A stretch of 40,520 nucleotides of DNA from a virus, in IMG/VR virus record IMGVR_UViG_3300007559_000009, positions 1 through 40,520 of that record. One strand, 5' to 3'. Each line of letters starts with the position of its first letter. Positions within the stretch are counted from its first letter, which is position 1. Shown here in pieces: positions 2,467-13,525 of the stretch. The position numbers and the translations under genes were made by a program. The notes below the pieces were generated by a model. The model was given only the letters and a program-made list of their open reading frames with translations. It was not told the DNA's origin and searched no databases.

Positions 2467-2550
2467 TCACTCAACCCACTCATTCCATAACACAATAATA
2501 AAAATAATAACACAAATGGCATAGGGTAAAATCTTTAACGTATCAACCAT
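2467..2550 (-). CDS. Tiny membrane peptide (27 aa)
   Basis: A 27-residue peptide beginning MVDTLKILPYAICVII, with one hydrophobic helix and an acidic-aromatic tail (NEWVE). It ends exactly where the 74-residue gene begins and overlaps the preceding membrane peptide in another frame. Support is positional and by hydropathy only. Role unknown. Confidence 0.4.
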   Translation of the reverse strand: MVDTLKILPYAICVIIFIIVLWNEWVE

Positions 2551-2633
2551 AACATCAATCCAAACAAACCAATAAAAAACCCTATCACCAAAGCAATAGG
2601 CATTAAGTACCATTTAGTCATTTTTCTTTTCAT
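2535..2633 (-). CDS. Small membrane protein (32 aa)
   Basis: A 32-residue protein with a basic N-terminus (MKRKMTKWY) followed by one strongly hydrophobic helix with GxxxG spacing (GFFIGLFG). It is the first gene after the repeat-rich noncoding region and begins the chain of coupled small leftward genes. GGAA lies just upstream. It probably inserts in the inner membrane. Role unknown. Confidence 0.45.
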   Translation of the reverse strand: MKRKMTKWYLMPIALVIGFFIGLFGLMLWLIR

Positions 2634-2695
2634 AATTTTCCAATTTTTATCATTTTTAAGATAACTTGTTGATTTTAAAATAAATACTTGTTCGT

Positions 2696-3104
2696 GGGTC
2701 ACCATAAAAACACCCTAAATTTATGGTGACCCCTAATAACTAATTGATTTTTATAACAAATATGCCATTTGGGTCATGTGGGTCACCATTTTTGCCATCG
2801 CAGTCTTTTCTATAAGAGAATATATTTTTTTTTATTTCTTAATAGCATTTATGTAACCTATACAGTAAAAAATATATATTTCTCTCATGATACCGATTTT
2901 ACCTATATTACCCTGTCTTGGTGACCCATATAGTATATATAATATAAAAATCAATAACTTACTAGGGGACACCATTGGGTCACCATACCTATTTATGGTG
3001 ACCCAAATGACCAAGTGGTGACCCCTATTTCATCTAAAAATCTAAAAATCTAAAAATCACACTTTCTGTAAAAATTTTGCACTGCTGAAATGCGTGGGTC
3101 ACCA
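2696..3104. repeat. Array of GGTGACC inverted repeats, candidate replication origin or regulator array
   Basis: Seven copies of the near-palindrome GGGTCACCA / TGGTGACCC lie at 2696, 2724, 2780, 2919, 2977, 2996 and 3016, and an eighth at 3096 inside the 3' end of the primase-helicase gene. Copies 1 and 2 form a perfect 13-bp stem (GGGTCACCATAAA, 11-base loop) at 2696-2732. Copies 5 and 6 form a perfect 11-bp stem with a 6-base loop at 2977-3004. The surrounding 2650-3049 is very AT-rich and has no believable gene. Origins of P4-type replicons place short iterated sites near the primase-helicase gene, and the position here invites the same reading. That function is inferred. A triple 8-bp repeat (TCTAAAAA) follows near 3034-3057. 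Confidence 0.75.
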
Positions 3105-5587
3105 TTTTCAAAATTTTTCAGCCAAACAGTGTGTTTTTCTTTCTTACCATCATTTTTTGAAATCTTAACTCGGTTAGGAACTTTCTGAAAACCCATTCCT
3201 AACAAAATATGTTGAGTCATTTTTGCTGGTGGTAACTGAATGCCATCAGCTTCAAAATCCATTTTTATGCAAGATGCCAGATAGGTTAAATCAATAACAT
3301 CTTCATTTATAATTTCACAATTAAACTTATCAATCAAATCGTGCATATGCTCAACCTCCACATTTGCCGAATAATTAATCATAGCCGTTCTTGCACTTGT
3401 CAATGGCGCACGACTTTTAGGTTTAAAATCACTGCTAATTTGCCTGTTCATTAAATAACAAGCAATAGCATCTATTCTTCTTCTAGTTTCCAAAAACAAA
3501 GTTTCAAAATAATTATCAGCAGCTTCCGTTCCCCCTAAAACCTTATACAACTGCTCAGTGGATTGAATAGCCCCATAAATAATGCAAAAAGCCCGTTCAT
3601 CTTCAGTAATAGCCAAAGCATCAGGATGATTAGTAAAAAATAAATAACTGGCAAAATTAGGTACATTCCTATGATCCTGACCTTTTTCTTCAATTTGCAA
3701 TTCCTCATTTCGAATATAATCTTTAATCTTGTTCATCAAAGCATATTTATCATTGCCGGATACATAAATCTCCTCAATGATATTCAGAACAGACCCTGTA
3801 GCCCATGCCGAAAACCGACCCAATATGGCTTCAGGTTTAACCTTTTGTACATTACGCCCTAAAATACCCTGCATCACAACACTAAAATAAGATTTACCTG
3901 TACCTTGTGCGCCCTGCAATAATAAAGCCCAATGTAAACGCTCACCAGGGTTTTGCACAATATGGGACATCCAATCCAACATAATAGTCTGTTCACGCTC
4001 ATTGGCAAAAGTCATACGAACATGTGCCAGAAACAAATCAACTACTTTTTGACCATCAGCATCAATATTACCCTCACCCTGATTCTCTAAACTAGCCAAA
4101 GACATAACATCACTGACCCTATAGGTATTCAGCATAGCCTTACCCTGATACTCAAAAAACTCACCTGCAAGCGGAAAGTACATGCCATCAACAACAGTTG
4201 GCATAGGGTAATTAACACTCATTAATTGCGATGCAGATGTTTCTTCATCTTTACATTCAATAGTGCCACTGAACTTTTGGTTAAAAGCCTCTCGGTTTAA
4301 ACTATAATTCTTAATAATATTATGAAACTTACAACGTGTTTCAATATAAATCCAATCTTTAGCCCACTCAGGAAAGTCACTAGCTACTAACTCATTAACG
4401 GTTTCTTTCTTTTTAGGCATCAACTCCTTTTTAATAGTTGCTTTGCTAACACCAACTTCTTTCCCCCAAGATTCGTAAATTTCTTGAGCAAGTAATTGCC
4501 GTTTGCTTTCAGGAAATAATGTTAACGCTGTTTTGCTTAACTTCTTACGCAACTTGTCGTAACTATCAACATCAACAACAACACCATTGCCAACAGAAAC
4601 AACTTCAACAGTGCCATCAGCGTGTTCAACATCCACAACTTCAGCAGGGTTCATTATTTCTTCAAAATACCCCAACACCTCTTTTTCTTTTAGTTCATTA
4701 GCCTTCATAATGACAGTAGCGAAAGTCAATCGCTTTTTGCCTACACGTTTTTTAGCAAAAGATTTCCATTTACGATCCATTTTACTTTCATCAAATCGAG
4801 CAAGATCAAGTACAGACCAATGCCACCAAATACTAAAACCCTCCTCACTTCCTTCATACTGATGATACAAAGCCCTGCCAACATTCAACCAATCTTCATA
4901 CTCAACTATCCCTTCAGCTTTATATATTTCTAAACACTCAGCCACTTGCTCATCAGTAACATCTGACAAAGGTTGGTCATCTACCAATGCTTCTAAATCA
5001 TAATCACCTTCAGAAAAAGAATAACCATCTTCAATTGCTCTAAACTTCTCTATGTCAAAATCATTAATATCTAATAACTCACCTTCTTTGCTAAAAGTAA
5101 AAGCATCATAAACACCCTCAACAGATGCAGATGGCATATACATAGCGAGTTCAGGCTTGAACCCATGAGCATCAAATTTAAACTCTTTAAACTCATCTGC
5201 CAACGCCTTGCAAAAAGGTTCATAATCCTGAGCAGGTATTTCTGAAGCTAAAGGTATAACTATTCTAAAACGTGGAGCATCAACAGTGCTGGAGTAAGTG
5301 GAGTAAGCCACCAATGCATAAGGAAGCGTGTGTTCAAGCTCCAACAAAACATCTTCAGCAGTACCCTCATAACTATCAACATCAATAGTAACCAAACTTC
5401 TACTGAGCATGTTCTCAGCGTTGCGGTAATTGTTTGCAAAAGTACCGCCTACAAAATAACCATGTTCATCTTTACTTTTACCAACTTTGTGAGTAGTAAA
5501 CACACTGACCAACTTCTCCCAAGTAGCGGTTCTAAGTGTACACTTAGCACTTGTCTTTTCACCTCTGGATATAGTATATGTTTGCAT
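3050..5587 (-). CDS. Primase-polymerase / superfamily 3 helicase
   Basis: An 845-residue replication initiator-type protein. An archaeo-eukaryotic primase-like domain fills the first 170 residues, with a TIDVDSY metal-binding motif (Asp69, Asp71) and an APRFRIVIPL strand. A PriCT-2-like domain follows at about 210-300. A DUF5906/SF3-type helicase domain has its Walker A motif (QGAQGTGKSYF) near 555-565 and an acidic IIEEIY Walker B-like motif after it. The fusion suggests one protein that opens the origin, unwinds and primes. It starts two bases after the Cro-like gene ends, so the two share a leftward transcript. Its last codons run into the GGTGACC array, which contributes one site inside the coding region. 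Family-level function is confident; origin recognition is inferred. Confidence 0.9.
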   Translation of the reverse strand: MQTYTISRGEKTSAKCTLRTATWEKLVSVFTTHKVGKSKDEHGYFVGGTFANNYRNAENMLSRSLVTIDVDSYEGTAEDVLLELEHTLPYALVAYSTYSSTVDAPRFRIVIPLASEIPAQDYEPFCKALADEFKEFKFDAHGFKPELAMYMPSASVEGVYDAFTFSKEGELLDINDFDIEKFRAIEDGYSFSEGDYDLEALVDDQPLSDVTDEQVAECLEIYKAEGIVEYEDWLNVGRALYHQYEGSEEGFSIWWHWSVLDLARFDESKMDRKWKSFAKKRVGKKRLTFATVIMKANELKEKEVLGYFEEIMNPAEVVDVEHADGTVEVVSVGNGVVVDVDSYDKLRKKLSKTALTLFPESKRQLLAQEIYESWGKEVGVSKATIKKELMPKKKETVNELVASDFPEWAKDWIYIETRCKFHNIIKNYSLNREAFNQKFSGTIECKDEETSASQLMSVNYPMPTVVDGMYFPLAGEFFEYQGKAMLNTYRVSDVMSLASLENQGEGNIDADGQKVVDLFLAHVRMTFANEREQTIMLDWMSHIVQNPGERLHWALLLQGAQGTGKSYFSVVMQGILGRNVQKVKPEAILGRFSAWATGSVLNIIEEIYVSGNDKYALMNKIKDYIRNEELQIEEKGQDHRNVPNFASYLFFTNHPDALAITEDERAFCIIYGAIQSTEQLYKVLGGTEAADNYFETLFLETRRRIDAIACYLMNRQISSDFKPKSRAPLTSARTAMINYSANVEVEHMHDLIDKFNCEIINEDVIDLTYLASCIKMDFEADGIQLPPAKMTQHILLGMGFQKVPNRVKISKNDGKKEKHTVWLKNFENGDPRISAVQNFYRKCDF

Positions 5588-7632: not shown

Positions 7633-8733
7633 ATGGCAGTATTCATTGATGTGGAATGTTATAAAGACTACTTTCTTTTTTGCGCTAAAAATAGTAAGTC
7701 AGGGAAGATTACTAAAATTCCTATGCACGCTGATTGTAAGTTAAATAAAGAACTATTAGGTGAAATATTAAAAGTAGAACTTATTAGCTTTAATGGTAAT
7801 AACTATGATCTACCAATTATATCTGGAGCATTAGCAGGATGGGATTGTCAAAAATTACATAAATTATCAAATCAAATAATATTAAGTGATAAACCCACTT
7901 ATCAGATTTTAAAAGATAAAGATTTAACGGTAAAAAATTATAACCATATTGACCTTATAGAAGTTGCCATTGGAGTTGCGTCATTAAAGATATATGGTGG
8001 TAGATTGCATACTCAAAAGATGCAAGATTTACCTATAGACCCACAAAGTTCTATCTCGCCAGAACAACGTGAAATATTAGAACTTTATTGTCAAAACGAT
8101 TTGGAATTGACGGAGCTTCTTTATAACAAGTTATTACCTCAAATAAATCTCCGTAGAGAAATGAAAGCCACCTACGGTATGGATTTACGTTCTAAATCTG
8201 ATGCTCAAATTGCTGAAACAGTTATTAAATCAGAACTTAATGCTATAACTAATGATGCATATAGCCCCAAAGATTATGCAGAAGGATTTGTCTTTAATTA
8301 TAAAGACCCTTTGATTATTTCGTTTAAAAATCCAGAGCTAATTAATATTTATAATAGTTTGCTTGAACAAGAATTTACTTTGTCAGCTAAAGGCTCTGTA
8401 CAGATGCCAACGTGGTTGGCTAGACAAAAAATAACAATAGGTAACACTATTTATAAAATGGGGATTGGTGGTTTACATAGTTGTGAGAAAAGCCAATTAG
8501 TAAAAGCATCATCTACTTATTTAATAAGCGATTTTGATGTAACTTCTTTTTATCCTAGTATTATTTTGCAACAAGAACTTTATCCTGAAAATATGGGTAG
8601 AGAGTTTTTAACCTTATATAAATCTATTGTTGAACGTAGAATATTTGCAAAAAAAATGGTTTCTGAATTACAATGTCGAATTGAAACTTTGGAAAGAGAG
8701 ATCGAAAATGCCATTACCAAAAAGACCTTATAG
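7633..8733 (+). CDS. Family B DNA polymerase, N-terminal half (exonuclease and motif A), split gene
   Basis: A 366-residue fragment. 3'-5' exonuclease motifs are visible: FIDVECYKDY (Exo I, Asp6 and Glu8), FNGNNYDLPII (Exo II) and YCQNDLELTELLY (Exo III). Polymerase motif A is DFDVTSFYPSIIL with the metal-binding Asp at residue 302. The reading frame then enters a helical stretch (SELQCRIETLEREIE) and stops at 8733 inside the start of the homing endonuclease gene. Motifs B and C are in the separate ORF at 9345-10151. AAGGA precedes the ATG by 6 bases. The break lies between motifs A and B, where family B enzymes have the tip of the fingers, so two halves could assemble. The last 8 codons or so are probably insertion-derived. 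Confidence 0.9.
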   Translation: MAVFIDVECYKDYFLFCAKNSKSGKITKIPMHADCKLNKELLGEILKVELISFNGNNYDLPIISGALAGWDCQKLHKLSNQIILSDKPTYQILKDKDLTVKNYNHIDLIEVAIGVASLKIYGGRLHTQKMQDLPIDPQSSISPEQREILELYCQNDLELTELLYNKLLPQINLRREMKATYGMDLRSKSDAQIAETVIKSELNAITNDAYSPKDYAEGFVFNYKDPLIISFKNPELINIYNSLLEQEFTLSAKGSVQMPTWLARQKITIGNTIYKMGIGGLHSCEKSQLVKASSTYLISDFDVTSFYPSIILQQELYPENMGREFLTLYKSIVERRIFAKKMVSELQCRIETLEREIENAITKKTL

Positions 8734-9382
8734 TAAACGAGGGGATAAAGAAGAATGTGTAAAACATCCTTTATACATAACTTGGCACAACATGATGCGA
8801 AGATGTTATTTTGAAAAAGACAATTCATTTTTAAATTATGGAGCTAGAGGTATTGTGGTTTGCAAAGAATGGCATCGTTTTAAAAATTTTTTAAAAGATA
8901 TGGGTGATAAACCATCTAAATATCATAGTTTAGATCGTATTGATAACGATCTGGGTTATTCAAAATATAATTGTAGATGGGCAACTCGATCACAACAATG
9001 TGATAACAGGCGGACATTTAAAAATAATACTTCCGGTGAGAGAGGGATACAAAAAACAAACTTTGGTTTTTCAGCACGTTACGATTACGAACGTGTCAGA
9101 TATCATATTGGACACTTTATAACTTTTCAAGAAGCTGTGGAGGCTAGAAAAGCCTTTATAAAAATGCTCCATCTTGATAAAGAGCAAGCAATAAAATCCA
9201 TTTCAAATGAAACCGTGTGGAATAATTCTAAAACAAAAGTAAGAGGAGTCACACCCCATGTTGATGGGGGTTATATTGTCAGAGTGGGTGTTAAAGGTGT
9301 CCGTCATTATATTGGATATTTTAAAACTATAGAGGAAGCGTCTGATGCAAGACATAAATTTATTAAAGAAAGAACTGGTTGA
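8708..9382 (+). CDS. HNH-AP2 homing endonuclease splitting the DNA polymerase gene
   Basis: A 224-residue nuclease of the YGARGI-V-x-x-EW type. The HNH core includes LNYGARGIVVCKEWHRF near residue 40 and SLDRIDNDLGYSKYNCRWAT near residue 72. Two AP2-like domains follow, one from SGERGIQKTNFGFSARYDYE and one from KVRGVTPHVDGGYIVRVGVK. The ATG at 8708 overlaps the end of the polymerase N-half, and GAAAGAGAG lies 7 bases upstream. The gene's end overlaps the start of the polymerase C-half. It lies in the +1 frame relative to the N-half. The core closely resembles the HNH enzyme nested in intein 2. Almost all of the insertion is coding sequence, so there is no room for a ribozyme. Confidence 0.92.
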   Translation: MPLPKRPYSKRGDKEECVKHPLYITWHNMMRRCYFEKDNSFLNYGARGIVVCKEWHRFKNFLKDMGDKPSKYHSLDRIDNDLGYSKYNCRWATRSQQCDNRRTFKNNTSGERGIQKTNFGFSARYDYERVRYHIGHFITFQEAVEARKAFIKMLHLDKEQAIKSISNETVWNNSKTKVRGVTPHVDGGYIVRVGVKGVRHYIGYFKTIEEASDARHKFIKERTG

Positions 9383-10151
9383 AGCAAAAGCACAATTAAA
9401 TATGTATAAGACTGAGGAGGCTAGTAAAAAAATACAACTCAATGGCTCATACGGCAAATTTGGAAGCAGATTTAGTGCTTTATATTCACCTGAACTATTA
9501 CTACAAACTACTATAACAGGGCAATTAAGTTTGCTAATGCTAATTGAAGTATTAGAAGAAAATAATATACAAGTTGTTAGTGCAAACACTGATGGAATTG
9601 TAACTAAATATCGAGCAGAAGATAGTGAGTTAGTGCAGAAACTACTTGCTGAATGGACATTAAAAACAACCTACAATCTTGAACAAACAGATTATAGGAT
9701 AATAGCTTCAAGGGATGTTAATAATTATTTAGCAGTTAAAACTGATGGCAAGACAAAAGGAAAAGGTTGTTTTGCTGATCCGTCATTGTCTAAGAACCCT
9801 GACGGGCAAATAATTTATGAAGCGGTAATAGCTAAAATAGCATCAGGTAAACCGATTAGCCAAACTATTAAAAAATGCACTGACATTACTAAATTTGTGA
9901 CTGTGCGTACGGTTACCGGTGGTGCAATGTGGCAGGATACATATTTAGGAAAAGCCATAAGATTTTACCATACGTCAATACCAGAATTGAAAGAAGTAAC
10001 TATAACCTATGCTAAAAATGGCAATAAAGTGCCATTAAGTTTAGGATGTATGCCCCTTATGGATTTGCCAGATACTTTTCCTACTGATATTGATTATGAT
10101 TATTACATTATGAAAGCAAATGAATTATTAACAGGAGTTGGTTATGCTTGA
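9345..10151 (+). CDS. Family B DNA polymerase, C-terminal half (motifs B and C), split gene
   Basis: A 268-residue fragment starting with a charged helix (LLKKELVEAKAQLNMYKTEE). Motif B follows (KKIQLNGSYGKFG, residues 28-40), then motif C (SANTDGIVTKY, Asp83). It therefore holds the template/nucleotide-binding helix and the second catalytic Asp, while motif A is on the other polypeptide. It has a convincing start of its own: AGAGGAA lies 7 bases before the ATG at 9345, within the end of the endonuclease gene. This supports translation as a separate subunit rather than RNA splicing. Its end overlaps the VRR-NUC gene. A trans-assembled polymerase is inferred. Confidence 0.9.
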   Translation: MQDINLLKKELVEAKAQLNMYKTEEASKKIQLNGSYGKFGSRFSALYSPELLLQTTITGQLSLLMLIEVLEENNIQVVSANTDGIVTKYRAEDSELVQKLLAEWTLKTTYNLEQTDYRIIASRDVNNYLAVKTDGKTKGKGCFADPSLSKNPDGQIIYEAVIAKIASGKPISQTIKKCTDITKFVTVRTVTGGAMWQDTYLGKAIRFYHTSIPELKEVTITYAKNGNKVPLSLGCMPLMDLPDTFPTDIDYDYYIMKANELLTGVGYA

Positions 10152-10410
10152 ACGAGATATAGAAAAAGCATTATGTAAAAAAGTAAAAGAATTAGGGGGG
10201 ACATGTGAAAAATATACCTCTCCAAGTAGACGTTTTGTACCTGATAGATTGGTTATGCTCCCTGATAAACGTATTATTTTTGTAGAGTGCAAAGCACTAG
10301 GTAAAGTTCCAACAATAGCTCAAAAAAATGACCATGACCGCAGAAGAGCTATGGGGTTTGATGTAAGAGTAATAGACAGTATGGAGCAAGTTAATGCCTT
10401 CCCGAATTGA
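10144..10410 (+). CDS. VRR-NUC domain nuclease
   Basis: An 88-residue single-domain PD-(D/E)XK nuclease. The sequence shows GGTCEKYTSPSRRFVPDRLV followed by IIFVECKALGK (the E-x-K pair) and then TIAQKNDHDRRRAMGFDVRV, the usual VRR-NUC order of Asp, Glu and Lys. Such proteins are common in phage replication regions and are thought to resolve branched DNA. The ATG at 10144 has AGGAG 6 bases upstream; the TTG at 10138 is too close to it. It overlaps the polymerase C-half and the helicase, so the three are probably co-translated. Confidence 0.9.
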   Translation: MLERDIEKALCKKVKELGGTCEKYTSPSRRFVPDRLVMLPDKRIIFVECKALGKVPTIAQKNDHDRRRAMGFDVRVIDSMEQVNAFPN

Positions 10411-13400
10411 TTTACACGAATATCAAAATAGAGCTGTTGATTTTATAAAAGATAAAAAACGCTCATTTTTAATGTTAGAAATGGGTTTGGGCAAAACCGT
10501 ATCAACATTAACTGCTATTAGCGATTTATTAAAAACTAAATTAGTAAAAAAAGTATTAGTAATAGCCCCATTGCGAGTAGCCAATTCTGTGTGGGTTCAA
10601 GAATCACGCAAATGGGAACATACTAAACATTTATCTGTAGCTAGGGTGTTGGGTGACCAAAATGCACGCCTTAAAGTTTTACACTATGACTACGATGTTT
10701 ATGTCATTAACCGAGAAAATGTCCAATGGTTAGTTAATCATTACGGTAAAAAATGGGCATTTGATATGGTGGTTATTGATGAATGTTTCCCTGAAGGAAC
10801 TATGATATTGACCCCTTTAGGAGTTCGTGATATAAAACATCTTGAAACAGGTGATTTAGTAATGACATCTGTCGGTGAAATGCCTATTACAAAAACTTTT
10901 AGGAAACAAACAAATGAACTCGTTAAATTATATTTATCCGATGGATCAACAATTGAATGTACAAGAGATCATCCTTTTGCAACAGAAAAGGGGTGGGTAC
11001 AAGCATGGCGATGTAGGGGCTTGCATTTTGTGCGGAACGATTTTTATGAAACGAAAGCTGACTCATCAGCTATGCAGCAAAACTTGTTCAAAGAAACAAA
11101 TGCATTTGATGAAAACCCCAGAAGAAAGAGCAGCTATTTTATTAAAATCTGGAACTACTGCAAAAAGAAGATATGCAAATGGGGAAATAAAAATTTGGAA
11201 CAAAGGGAAAGAATGGTCAGAAGAAATAAAGAAAAAATTAAGCGATGCACACAAGAAAAGTGGGCATCGACCGATAACAAGAGGTGGAAATGGAAAAATA
11301 GCACGTTGCGAACAATTAATGTTAGAAATGTTATCAGACGAATGGAAAATGCAATGTGTGATACCTACCAAAATGCCAAGAGGGTCGGGTTATCCAACAT
11401 GTTACAAAGTAGATTTTGGCATTTATTCAAAAAAAATAGCTATAGAGGTGGATGGAAACTCTCACAGATCGCGAAAGCGTCAAGACGAAAAGAAAGATAC
11501 CTTTCTTCAACAGTTAGGGTGGACTATATTGAGAATATCAAATGTGAAAGTGGAAGAACAGTATACAATTTGGAAACAGACGGGATTAACGATTACTTTG
11601 CCGAAGGGATTTTAGTTCATAATTGTTCTTCATTTAAAAACCCTGCAAGCCAACGCTTTAAAGCCATGAAAAAGATACTACCTTTTGTTGAGTATATGGT
11701 TCTCCTGACGGGTACACCTTCCCCTAATGGGCTATTAGACTTGTGGTCGCAATGTTATCTTGTTGACTATGGTAATTCATTAGGGCGCACGATGACTGCA
11801 TATAAGCAACGCTTTTTTGAGCAAGATTATATGGGATATAGCTTTACCCCAAGAAAAGGCGCACAAGCATCAATTCAAAAACTGATGCAACCTTATAGTT
11901 TATCAATGCAAACCGCTGATTATTTGGAATTGCCAGATCGAATTGATTTGATAGAAGAAATAGAATTAGATAGTAAAAGTTTAGCTTTATATAAAGCCTT
12001 TGAGCGTGATTTATTCATAGAGTTTGAAGGGCATCAAGTAGAAGCCATTAACGCTGCTGTATTAGCTAATAAGTTGCTGCAATATTGCATAGCTGAAGGT
12101 ACTGAAGTATTAACAGATGGTGGTTGGAAACCAATAGAAATATTACACGAAAACGATATGTTGTGGGACGGTATAGAATGGTCAAACTATTCCAAATTAG
12201 TTTGCAACGGATATAAAGATGTAATAAAATTGGACGGTGTAAAAATGACACCCGAACACAAGGTTTTAACAATATCGGGATGGGAAACAGCCGGAGATAT
12301 ATTAAATGGTAATGCCAGTGAAAGATTTAACAGGGCTAACGTTCGGTTACCTGACGGTTTTAAAGAAAGCCGGAACAAGCAAAAACAAAAATGCAACATG
12401 GTTATGCAAATGTGTATGTGGAAACGAGATTATTCGCATTGGAAGCAATTTGCACAATCGACCGTTAAGACCCGGAAAAGCATCATGCGGATGTTCACTT
12501 GGAGAAACAATATTGGAAGGTCGCAAACGATTAGGTCTATCCCATCACGGTATGGCTCGCACAAGACCCTATCGAATTTGGACAAATATGCGTTCTCGGT
12601 GTTTGAACAAAAAAGACAAGGATTTTTCAAACTATGGGGCAAGAGGGATACTGGTTTGCAAAGAATGGGAAGTTTCTTTCAAAAATTTTTGGGAAGATAT
12701 GTCGGAAAGTTATCAGGATCATTTGACATTAGAGAGAATGGACAACGAAAAAGGCTATTCGAAAGAAAATTGTCGTTGGGCAACTGTGCAAGAGCAATCA
12801 AACAATACTCGTGTGAACCGTTGGATAAATACTCCGAATGGAAAAATGACGGTAACTCAAGCGTCAGTTTTTTACAAAATAAAAACGGTAACATTGTATG
12901 CAAGGATATTTCGGTACAAATGGGACGAATCTCAATGGTTCAATCAACCGATAAAGAAAAAAAAAGAGTCTATGACATTGTAAATTGCGGTAAAAGAAAT
13001 AGATTTACTGTGCGTGGCGACGCAGGTCAATTACTTATTGTCCACAATTGCAACGGGGCAATATATGTTGATGAATATAAGAATTGGGGAGAAATTCATA
13101 CCGCAAAACTTGATGCTCTAGCTGAATTAATTGAGCAAAATGACGAAAACATCCTTGTAGCTTATAACTATAGAAGTGATCTTGAACGCCTACAGGCACG
13201 TTTTCCAACAGCAGTACGCTTAGACAAACATGATGAAACTATACAAGCATGGAATAGAGGTGAAATTAAATTGTTATTAGCTCATCCGCAATCAGCAGGA
13301 CATGGTATCAACCTTTATGACGGTGGGTGTATGACCGTTTGGTTTTCATTGTGTTGGTCATTAGAATATTACCAACAATTCAATGCGAGATTACATCGTC

Positions 13401-13525
13401 AAGGGCAAACTAAACCCGTACGTATTGTACATTTAGTTGTAAAAGACGGCATTGATGGCAGGGTGATGCAAGTTATAAATGAGAAAGATGCCACGCAGAA
13501 TCGGCTATTGAGCGCATTGCGTTAA
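10394..13525 (+). CDS. SNF2-family DNA helicase precursor containing two inteins
   Basis: One uninterrupted 1043-codon frame. Removing both inteins leaves about 442 residues, a normal size for a phage SNF2 helicase. Visible extein motifs are motif I (LEMGLGKT, Lys34), motif Ia (VLVIAPLRV), motif II (VVIDE at 126-130), VLLTGTPSPNG (motif III), AGHGINL (motif V) and QFNARLHRQGQTKPVRI (motif VI). Intein 1 replaces the junction right after motif II (IDE/CSSFKN); intein 2 lies at LLQY/CNGAIY. The enzyme cannot be active until intein 1 is spliced, since it interrupts the Walker B region. It overlaps the VRR-NUC gene. The helicase probably remodels or unwinds DNA at phage forks. Confidence 0.93.
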   Translation: MPSRIDLHEYQNRAVDFIKDKKRSFLMLEMGLGKTVSTLTAISDLLKTKLVKKVLVIAPLRVANSVWVQESRKWEHTKHLSVARVLGDQNARLKVLHYDYDVYVINRENVQWLVNHYGKKWAFDMVVIDECFPEGTMILTPLGVRDIKHLETGDLVMTSVGEMPITKTFRKQTNELVKLYLSDGSTIECTRDHPFATEKGWVQAWRCRGLHFVRNDFYETKADSSAMQQNLFKETNAFDENPRRKSSYFIKIWNYCKKKICKWGNKNLEQRERMVRRNKEKIKRCTQEKWASTDNKRWKWKNSTLRTINVRNVIRRMENAMCDTYQNAKRVGLSNMLQSRFWHLFKKNSYRGGWKLSQIAKASRRKERYLSSTVRVDYIENIKCESGRTVYNLETDGINDYFAEGILVHNCSSFKNPASQRFKAMKKILPFVEYMVLLTGTPSPNGLLDLWSQCYLVDYGNSLGRTMTAYKQRFFEQDYMGYSFTPRKGAQASIQKLMQPYSLSMQTADYLELPDRIDLIEEIELDSKSLALYKAFERDLFIEFEGHQVEAINAAVLANKLLQYCIAEGTEVLTDGGWKPIEILHENDMLWDGIEWSNYSKLVCNGYKDVIKLDGVKMTPEHKVLTISGWETAGDILNGNASERFNRANVRLPDGFKESRNKQKQKCNMVMQMCMWKRDYSHWKQFAQSTVKTRKSIMRMFTWRNNIGRSQTIRSIPSRYGSHKTLSNLDKYAFSVFEQKRQGFFKLWGKRDTGLQRMGSFFQKFLGRYVGKLSGSFDIRENGQRKRLFERKLSLGNCARAIKQYSCEPLDKYSEWKNDGNSSVSFLQNKNGNIVCKDISVQMGRISMVQSTDKEKKRVYDIVNCGKRNRFTVRGDAGQLLIVHNCNGAIYVDEYKNWGEIHTAKLDALAELIEQNDENILVAYNYRSDLERLQARFPTAVRLDKHDETIQAWNRGEIKLLLAHPQSAGHGINLYDGGCMTVWFSLCWSLEYYQQFNARLHRQGQTKPVRIVHLVVKDGIDGRVMQVINEKDATQNRLLSALR
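10784..11623 (+). mobile_element. Intein 1 in the helicase, with an out-of-frame nested endonuclease
   Basis: A 280-residue intein at helicase residues 131-410. Block A is CFPEGTMILTPLG with catalytic Cys1, and block B is CTRDHPFATEKGW. Blocks F and G are VYNLETDGINDYFAEGILVH and HN, followed by Cys at +1. All residues for standard Cys-type splicing are present. Between B and F, where an in-frame endonuclease would normally sit, the intein frame reads about 180 codons of unrecognisable basic sequence. The +1 frame of the same DNA encodes a Vsr/DUF559-type endonuclease. The intein frame has no stop throughout. Confidence 0.93.
10914..11615 (+). CDS. Vsr/DUF559-like (EDxHD) homing endonuclease nested in intein 1, +1 frame
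   Basis: A 233-residue ORF lying entirely inside intein 1. The recognisable part starts with a zinc finger (CILC, then CSKTC), continues through a NUMOD3-like helix (IWNKGKEWSEEIKKKLSDAH) and ends in a PD-(D/E)XK Vsr-type core (CEQLMLEML, VDFGIY, IAIEVDGNSH, RQDEKKD, LGWTILRIS). This EDxHD family is known from homing endonucleases linked to split inteins. The ATG at 10914 is preferred because AGGAA lies 8 bases upstream; TTG at 10977 is an alternative and an earlier ATG at 10875 lacks support. The first 25 or so and last 18 residues overlap intein splicing blocks and are probably passengers. Confidence 0.88.
   Translation: MNSLNYIYPMDQQLNVQEIILLQQKRGGYKHGDVGACILCGTIFMKRKLTHQLCSKTCSKKQMHLMKTPEERAAILLKSGTTAKRRYANGEIKIWNKGKEWSEEIKKKLSDAHKKSGHRPITRGGNGKIARCEQLMLEMLSDEWKMQCVIPTKMPRGSGYPTCYKVDFGIYSKKIAIEVDGNSHRSRKRQDEKKDTFLQQLGWTILRISNVKVEEQYTIWKQTGLTITLPKGF
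12086..13048 (+). mobile_element. Intein 2 in the helicase, with an out-of-frame nested endonuclease
   Basis: A 321-residue intein at helicase residues 565-885. Block A is CIAEGTEVLTDGGW with Cys1, block B is MTPEHKVLTISGW, block F is RVYDIVNCGKRNRFTVRG, and block G is LLIVHN, followed by Cys at +1 (CNGAIY). Splicing residues look complete. The roughly 220 codons between B and F read as low-meaning basic sequence in the intein frame and stay open. The +1 frame encodes an HNH homing endonuclease. The architecture matches intein 1, but the nested nuclease is from a different family. Confidence 0.93.
12306..12983 (+). CDS. HNH homing endonuclease nested in intein 2, +1 frame
   Basis: A 225-residue ORF inside intein 2. 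It starts MVMPVKDLTGLTFGYLTVL, the usual opening of many phage HNH proteins, followed by a Cys-rich zinc segment (WLCKCVCGNE, ASCGC). The HNH core is FSNYGARGILVCKEW and then LTLERMDNEKGYSKENCRWA, with a C-terminal helix-turn-helix-like tail (NGKMTVTQASVFYKI). GGAG lies 9 bases before the ATG at 12306; ATG 12312 is also possible. Its start falls after intein block B and its stop just after block F begins, so overlap with essential splicing codons is minimal. Its core closely resembles the polymerase-splitting enzyme at 8708-9382. Confidence 0.92.
   Translation: MVMPVKDLTGLTFGYLTVLKKAGTSKNKNATWLCKCVCGNEIIRIGSNLHNRPLRPGKASCGCSLGETILEGRKRLGLSHHGMARTRPYRIWTNMRSRCLNKKDKDFSNYGARGILVCKEWEVSFKNFWEDMSESYQDHLTLERMDNEKGYSKENCRWATVQEQSNNTRVNRWINTPNGKMTVTQASVFYKIKTVTLYARIFRYKWDESQWFNQPIKKKKESMTL

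Follow-up and report, generated by a model that had tools for sequence, protein, structure and literature searches.

Two helicase inteins of an IMG/VR virus contain putative homing endonuclease genes in a second reading frame

The window analysed here is the whole of IMG/VR virus record IMGVR_UViG_3300007559_000009 (40.5 kb). It contains a family B DNA polymerase gene that is divided into two halves (polN and polC) by an HNH endonuclease gene (HNH-A), and a helicase gene with two inteins, each of which contains an endonuclease gene in another reading frame (Table 1). The gene within intein 2 (HNH-B) encodes an HNH endonuclease. The gene within intein 1 (10875-11615) encodes a DUF559/restriction endonuclease-like enzyme, not an HNH enzyme (Pfam E = 3e-11), which matches the structure 3hrl (E = 1e-9) and, weakly, I-Bth0305I (3r3p; only E = 0.1). 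The phases of polN, HNH-A, polC, the helicase gene, the DUF559-type open reading frame (ORF) and HNH-B are 1, 2, 0, 2, 0 and 0 respectively. The three endonuclease ORFs are therefore each +1 to the frame they overlap, as the first-pass annotation of this DNA had reported. HNH-A overlaps polN by 26 nucleotides (nt) and polC by 38 nt. The helicase frame reads straight through both nested endonuclease genes without interruption.

Table 1. Positions of the polymerase and helicase genes, inteins, endonuclease genes and ribosome-binding sites in the window.
Feature	Position	Strand	Evidence and remarks
Family B DNA polymerase N-half (polN; motif A)	7633..8733	+	PHROG 1252, E 7e-90; intact in L003
HNH-A, splits polymerase, +1 to N-half	8708..9382	+	PHROG 374, E 4.5e-51; 31 stops in polN frame
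Shine-Dalgarno-like AGAGGA for polC, within 3' end of HNH-A	9331..9336	+	8 nt upstream of ATG 9345
Polymerase C-half (polC; motifs B and C), own start	9345..10151	+	PHROG 1252, E 4e-85
SNF2-type helicase ORF with two inteins, 1043 amino acids (aa)	10394..13525	+	Pfam SNF2-rel_dom 2.5e-19, Intein_splicing 4e-12; uninterrupted in L003
Helicase extein parts	10394-10783, 11624-12085, 13049-13525	+	
Intein 1 (280 aa), site DE^C in helicase motif II	10784..11623	+	C1, TxxH, HN, +1 Cys; predicted fold
DUF559/EDxHD-like endonuclease, +1 in intein 1	11004..11615 (conserved part)	+	Pfam DUF559, 3e-11; conserved in L038-L044
Intein 2 (321 aa), site LLQY^C	12086..13048	+	C1, TxxH, HN, +1 Cys; predicted fold
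Shine-Dalgarno-like GGAG for HNH-B	12293..12296	+	9 nt upstream of ATG 12306
HNH-B, HNH endonuclease, +1 in intein 2	12306..12983	+	PHROG 374, E 1.2e-60; likewise in L046 and L033

The intein boundaries were set from the extein alignment. The C1 residue, the TxxH motif of block B, the C-terminal HN and the +1 Cys are kept in both inteins and in their homologues. When the host-frame alignments are used for AlphaFold prediction, a confident splicing domain is formed by both intein ends (predicted local distance difference test score, pLDDT, >90), and the linker between these ends is mostly disordered (pLDDT 30-50). The best Foldseek matches of the predicted folds are inteins. Intein 1 is nearest, by profile and by fold, to gp41-1 and an intein-like domain (template modelling score 0.83 by target). 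Thus, both inteins are predicted to have complete splicing domains of the HINT fold, and they probably splice.

The insertions are absent from close relatives, in which the junctions were mapped as the first-pass annotation had proposed. All three insertion sites are empty in the related locus L003, which is 96% identical to the window in the helicase and 93% and 97% identical in the two polymerase halves. Its polymerase is continuous between motifs A and B, and both of its helicase sites are uninterrupted. The exteins join in frame where the helicase inteins are absent, in L003 and others. The helicase inteins are patchily distributed, being present in L038-L044, L046 and L033 and absent from the same sites of L003-L006 and L030. 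L035, which matches the window at 100% identity along 13.9 kb, represents the same virus and is not counted as independent support.

Host-frame stops across the nested endonuclease genes number zero in the two genes of the window and in those of L046, L033 and L038. When these proteins are back-translated synonymously with the codon usage of the phage, 21-28 host-frame stops are expected, and the minimum in 20,000 draws is 8-16. HNH-A provides an internal contrast, with 31 stops in the polN frame. A host-frame stop arises when an endonuclease codon ending in T precedes AA, AG or GA. Codons in this position end in T in 0/43, 0/42, 0/46, 0/42 and 0/40 cases in the five nested genes, as compared with ~40-48% elsewhere and 31/58 in HNH-A. 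The same zero in the larger nested set is a consequence of how 'nested' was defined and is not used as evidence; the evidence kept is the bimodal distribution of stop counts, together with the pairwise tests and with the frame-blind survey described below.

The proportions of nonsynonymous and synonymous differences (pN/pS) in the endonuclease frame are 0.09/0.34 (L046) and 0.34/0.66 (L033) for HNH-B and 0.21/0.54 (L038) for the DUF559-type gene. In the intein frame at the same sites, they are 0.14/0.12 (L046), 0.41/0.41 (L033) and 0.27/0.32 (L038). In the endonuclease frame pN is well below pS, and in the intein frame the two are about equal. This result indicates that the endonuclease is under selection, and that the intein linker is free to change apart from staying open. 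When drift under the endonuclease constraint alone is simulated, 4.8 (L046) and 7.1 (L038) new host-frame stops arise, and only 0.8% (L046) and 0% (L038) of 500 runs acquire none. Dual coding in both helicase inteins is therefore real.

The same arrangement is found in cultured phages. When the two endonucleases are used as tblastn queries, a +1 endonuclease is detected in the helicase inteins of Vibrio phages CP-T1, 1.027.O, 159E43-1b and 104E43.1, Pseudomonas phage MR14 and Corynebacterium phage phi673, and in the PolA inteins of APSE-1, Caulobacter phage RW and Shewanella phage SFCi1. Host-frame stops are absent from 9/9 of these cases, and the third frame contains 9-16. For APSE-1, an overlapping HNH annotation, P46, was previously carried inside the polymerase gene. 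In a wider survey seeded with the endonucleases, 99/103 DUF559-type and 34/176 HNH-type matches are nested in +1, and the remaining HNH-type matches are mostly free-standing. About 110 distinct inteins were delimited. Many of them occupy the DE^C site in motif II of the helicase, and PolA and DnaX-like proteins contain others. To remove the bias of the endonuclease seed, the survey was repeated blind to frame, with the intein N-domain as the only query. The endonuclease is then in +1 in 61/61 distinct DUF559-type inteins. The HNH-type inteins comprise 54 with the gene in +1, 12 with it in +2, two mini-inteins, one in which the gene has decayed over all three frames and three with a broken host frame. 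No intein of either type in the frame-blind survey carries a cleanly in-frame endonuclease. The HNH genes in +2 belong to another subfamily, so that there were at least three endonuclease acquisitions (DUF559 in +1, HNH in +1 and HNH in +2). Out-of-frame nesting thus defines a class of more than 100 related inteins in phages and some contigs of bacterial metagenome-assembled genomes (MAGs). L222 and L223 have helicase ORFs that hold a DUF559-type and an HNH-type nested intein, as the window does. L229 (108-3941) encodes a PolA with two inteins; the HNH gene of the first is in +1 (2989-3636), and the second has an HNH gene of a different kind, in +2 (1703-2191). The DnaX-like clamp-loader genes of L302, L307 and L308, on bacterial MAG contigs, contain nested DUF559-type inteins and may be borne by mobile elements. 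The proposal that the host gene is an essential cellular one (DnaX in L302 and L308) is weakened by the presence of a further DnaX-like gene in two of these genomes.

Each helicase intein is very probably a mobile element that encodes two proteins in two frames, with the HNH gene of the polymerase a simpler split. The two open frames, their differing constraints, the splicing motifs, the predicted fold, the empty sites and the spread of the class, all of which are features of the sequence, support this explanation. The helicase frame would be read through to give a precursor containing the intein, the two ends of which would fold into a splicing domain around the disordered linker and excise themselves to leave an intact helicase. 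Ribosomes starting inside the intein coding sequence would read the +1 frame and produce a separate homing endonuclease, DUF559/EDxHD-like in intein 1 and of the HNH type in intein 2. This enzyme would cut the intein-free allele, and repair would copy in the intein and the endonuclease gene together. The host frame across the endonuclease gene would drift freely while staying free of stops. In the polymerase, a free-standing HNH gene would have been inserted between motifs A and B, giving two halves that are started separately. Two points weigh against this explanation. Many of the surveyed inteins are related, so that their counts are not independent. In addition, the true start of the DUF559-type gene is uncertain, as its ORF is open from 10875 and the ATG of the window at 10941 is missing in L038.

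The missing ATG leaves room for programmed +1 frameshifting from the intein frame, by which a fusion of the N-extein, the N-terminal part of the intein and the endonuclease would be made and the prevalence of +1 among the nested genes would be explained. This mechanism is unlikely, because the HNH-type nested genes begin at an NTG codon in a fixed place, ~200-220 nt into the intein, and are preceded by a Shine-Dalgarno-like site, which is GGAG for HNH-B of the window and L046 and AGGA in L033. Such a site is found at 28/29 HNH-type nested starts, a rate slightly inflated because the best of several candidate starts was taken; among the remaining NTG codons of these inteins, the rate is 14%. 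An in-frame NTG is also present in all 107 nested loci examined. In addition, a +2 group exists, and +1 is already expected from the composition of start codons, which are 3.5-4 times as frequent in phase +1 of these genes as in phase +2. For ATG in the host genes of the window the factor is 3.8 (61 versus 16), and at intein starts ATG occurs 213 times in +1 and 68 times in +2, these counts including some true endonuclease starts. Sabath et al. (PMC2542354) have described this compositional bias in general form. It is sufficient to explain the prevalence of +1, and no special mechanism is needed. The ratio of 54:12 fits this bias, although the inteins share common descent and hence are not independent draws. 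If the phases were equal, +1 in all three endonucleases of the window would be expected with P = 1/4. The first-pass annotation drew attention to the shared +1 phase. This phase has no need of a special cause and is not universal, as the 12 relatives with +2 indicate, and it is the more stop-prone phase for HNH genes.

It is very unlikely that the endonuclease ORFs are dead relics, the intein being a mini-intein with a linker and its +1 ORF having ceased to be expressed. Decayed and mini forms do occur in the family (L367, L372 and L377). However, purifying selection on the endonuclease frame is seen in pairwise comparisons at 70-84% identity, residues of catalytic type are invariant across distant endonuclease homologues, and the endonuclease ORF is intact in nearly all members of the family.

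The signature of a frame kept open is absent from HNH-A, and its 31 host-frame stops indicate that the polymerase gene is truly split. A T4-type DNA polymerase is likewise split, as gp43A and gp43B; there too a mobile element separates a polymerase B gene into two cistrons, in a different phage and by a different insertion. Group I introns often contain HNH genes, but a self-splicing intron carrying the HNH gene is very unlikely here, because no Rfam match reaches the gathering score in the window, the insert of ~742 nt is almost entirely HNH gene and would not accommodate a ribozyme core, and polC has its own Shine-Dalgarno-like site and ATG. Both halves are conserved against L003, with pN/pS ratios of 0.15 for polN and 0.08 for polC, although this conservation may mostly predate the split. 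The sequences flanking the HNH-A insert, MVSELQCRIETLEREIENA on the N-side and ELVEAKAQLNMYKTEEASKK on the C-side, are not those of L003, and the loop at the insertion place is longer in L010 and L032, as would be expected from insertion into a variable loop or from co-conversion. The scan with HNH-A found only three loci, too few to date the polymerase split. In L036 (687-3161), the same family B polymerase gene is interrupted elsewhere, by a GIY-YIG gene (2114-2770), indicating that it is a repeated target.

The cores of HNH-A and HNH-B are 54% identical over 81 aa. From the likeness of these cores, the first-pass annotation had supposed that one had probably spread to the other. The phylogeny of the HNH cores does not bear this out. 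HNH-B lies deep within the clade of intein-nested HNH enzymes, and HNH-A groups with the free-standing enzymes of L126 and L012 (support 98/98), the second of which is encoded between the polymerase and helicase genes of a relative. A tree with HNH-A placed in the nested clade is rejected by the approximately unbiased test (p-AU = 0.018). HNH-A and HNH-B are thus not close kin, and a sister relation between them is rejected.

Relatives of the HNH-type inteins also show how the forms may be connected. L047 (2185-4941; the same contig as L336) and L360 (419-3962) encode PolA with true split inteins, in which the HNH gene lies between the halves and the C-terminal half (IntC) has its own start. 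The HNH enzyme of L047 falls within the intein-nested clade, and these split inteins are possible intermediates toward the nested form or derivatives of it. The host frame is broken in L324 too, but its sequence has ambiguous bases. The inteins of L372 (145 aa) and L377 (151 aa) are mini-inteins with HNH remnants left in +1; they are nested forms decayed by deletion with the host frame preserved. The presence of nested, split and mini forms among relatives indicates that they belong to one intein family.

The first-pass annotation had arranged the insertions in stages, from splitting a gene to entering an intein that keeps the host protein whole. One insertion does split its gene and two lie in inteins that keep theirs whole, but the relatives show nested, split and mini forms and not a direct series. 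It had also held that the intein renders the insertion harmless. The host protein does stay whole. However, splicing alone is insufficient, because an ordinary HNH gene contains ~17 stops (16.8) in the +1 frame as compared with 9.6 in the other phase, and its direct insertion would break the host. The host frame must therefore have been preserved or opened up. The easiest path into the intein would be by way of a split form. Overall, the earlier observation is confirmed and its interpretation partly supported, and the finding is larger than first stated. Whole intein families might, somewhat short of an even chance, normally be built with out-of-frame nesting that protects the endonuclease, with split and nested forms interconverting and the split form admitting a stop-rich endonuclease gene. 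Indels in the endonuclease gene would also break an important host protein, so that the overlap would entangle the selfish gene with its host and slow its decay.

Two smaller features of the locus are recorded here. A small nuclease-like ORF lies between polymerase and helicase (10138-10410 of the window), and this order is kept in relatives. In L043, the small nuclease gene and the helicase gene with its intein are separated by a DNA methyltransferase gene (2510-3451), which near relatives lack.

The inteins of the window resemble canonical bifunctional inteins such as PI-SceI and PI-MtuI in having a splicing domain, a conserved insertion site and a homing endonuclease inside. They differ in that the endonuclease of the canonical inteins is an in-frame domain of the intein protein, whereas theirs is a separate protein in an overlapping frame. 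Fractured genes with split inteins of the gp41-1 type, in which a free endonuclease gene lies between the halves, were reportedly described by Dassa et al. in 2009. The endonuclease is likewise a separate gene between the N-terminal half (IntN) and IntC, and L047 and L360 are split forms of the HNH-type family, but the host frame of the window is continuous, so that splicing would occur in cis from one polypeptide. Among published elements, the ShiLan domain comes closest; it is an HNH encoded out of frame within a methylase of phages, and it has no splicing domain (PMC11855218). An out-of-frame HNH in a methylase is also reported in a genome announcement (PMC12613952). As in the window, the HNH of ShiLan is in a frame other than that of the host ORF, the host frame is open and the distribution is patchy (PMC11855218). 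In contrast, the host-frame product of ShiLan is thought to stay in the methylase, whereas the host frame of the window encodes a full intein with full splicing domains; ShiLan uses the third frame, whereas the nested inteins are mostly +1. No description of an endonuclease out of frame inside an intein was found in the literature, of which the coverage was partial, and a preprint on the 'non-canonical architecture' of actinobacteriophage inteins could overlap. An intein with the splicing protein and the endonuclease in different frames of the same DNA is a new variant.

Surveys of a single frame would class such inteins as endonuclease-free, and 'endonuclease-free' inteins with long linkers merit a rescan in the other frames. 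The locus is a natural case in which a long stretch of DNA codes in two frames, with a clear contrast close by, between HNH-B without stops and HNH-A with 31, and it connects contiguous inteins with the split inteins that biotechnology employs. It also makes testable whether overlap stabilises selfish genes.

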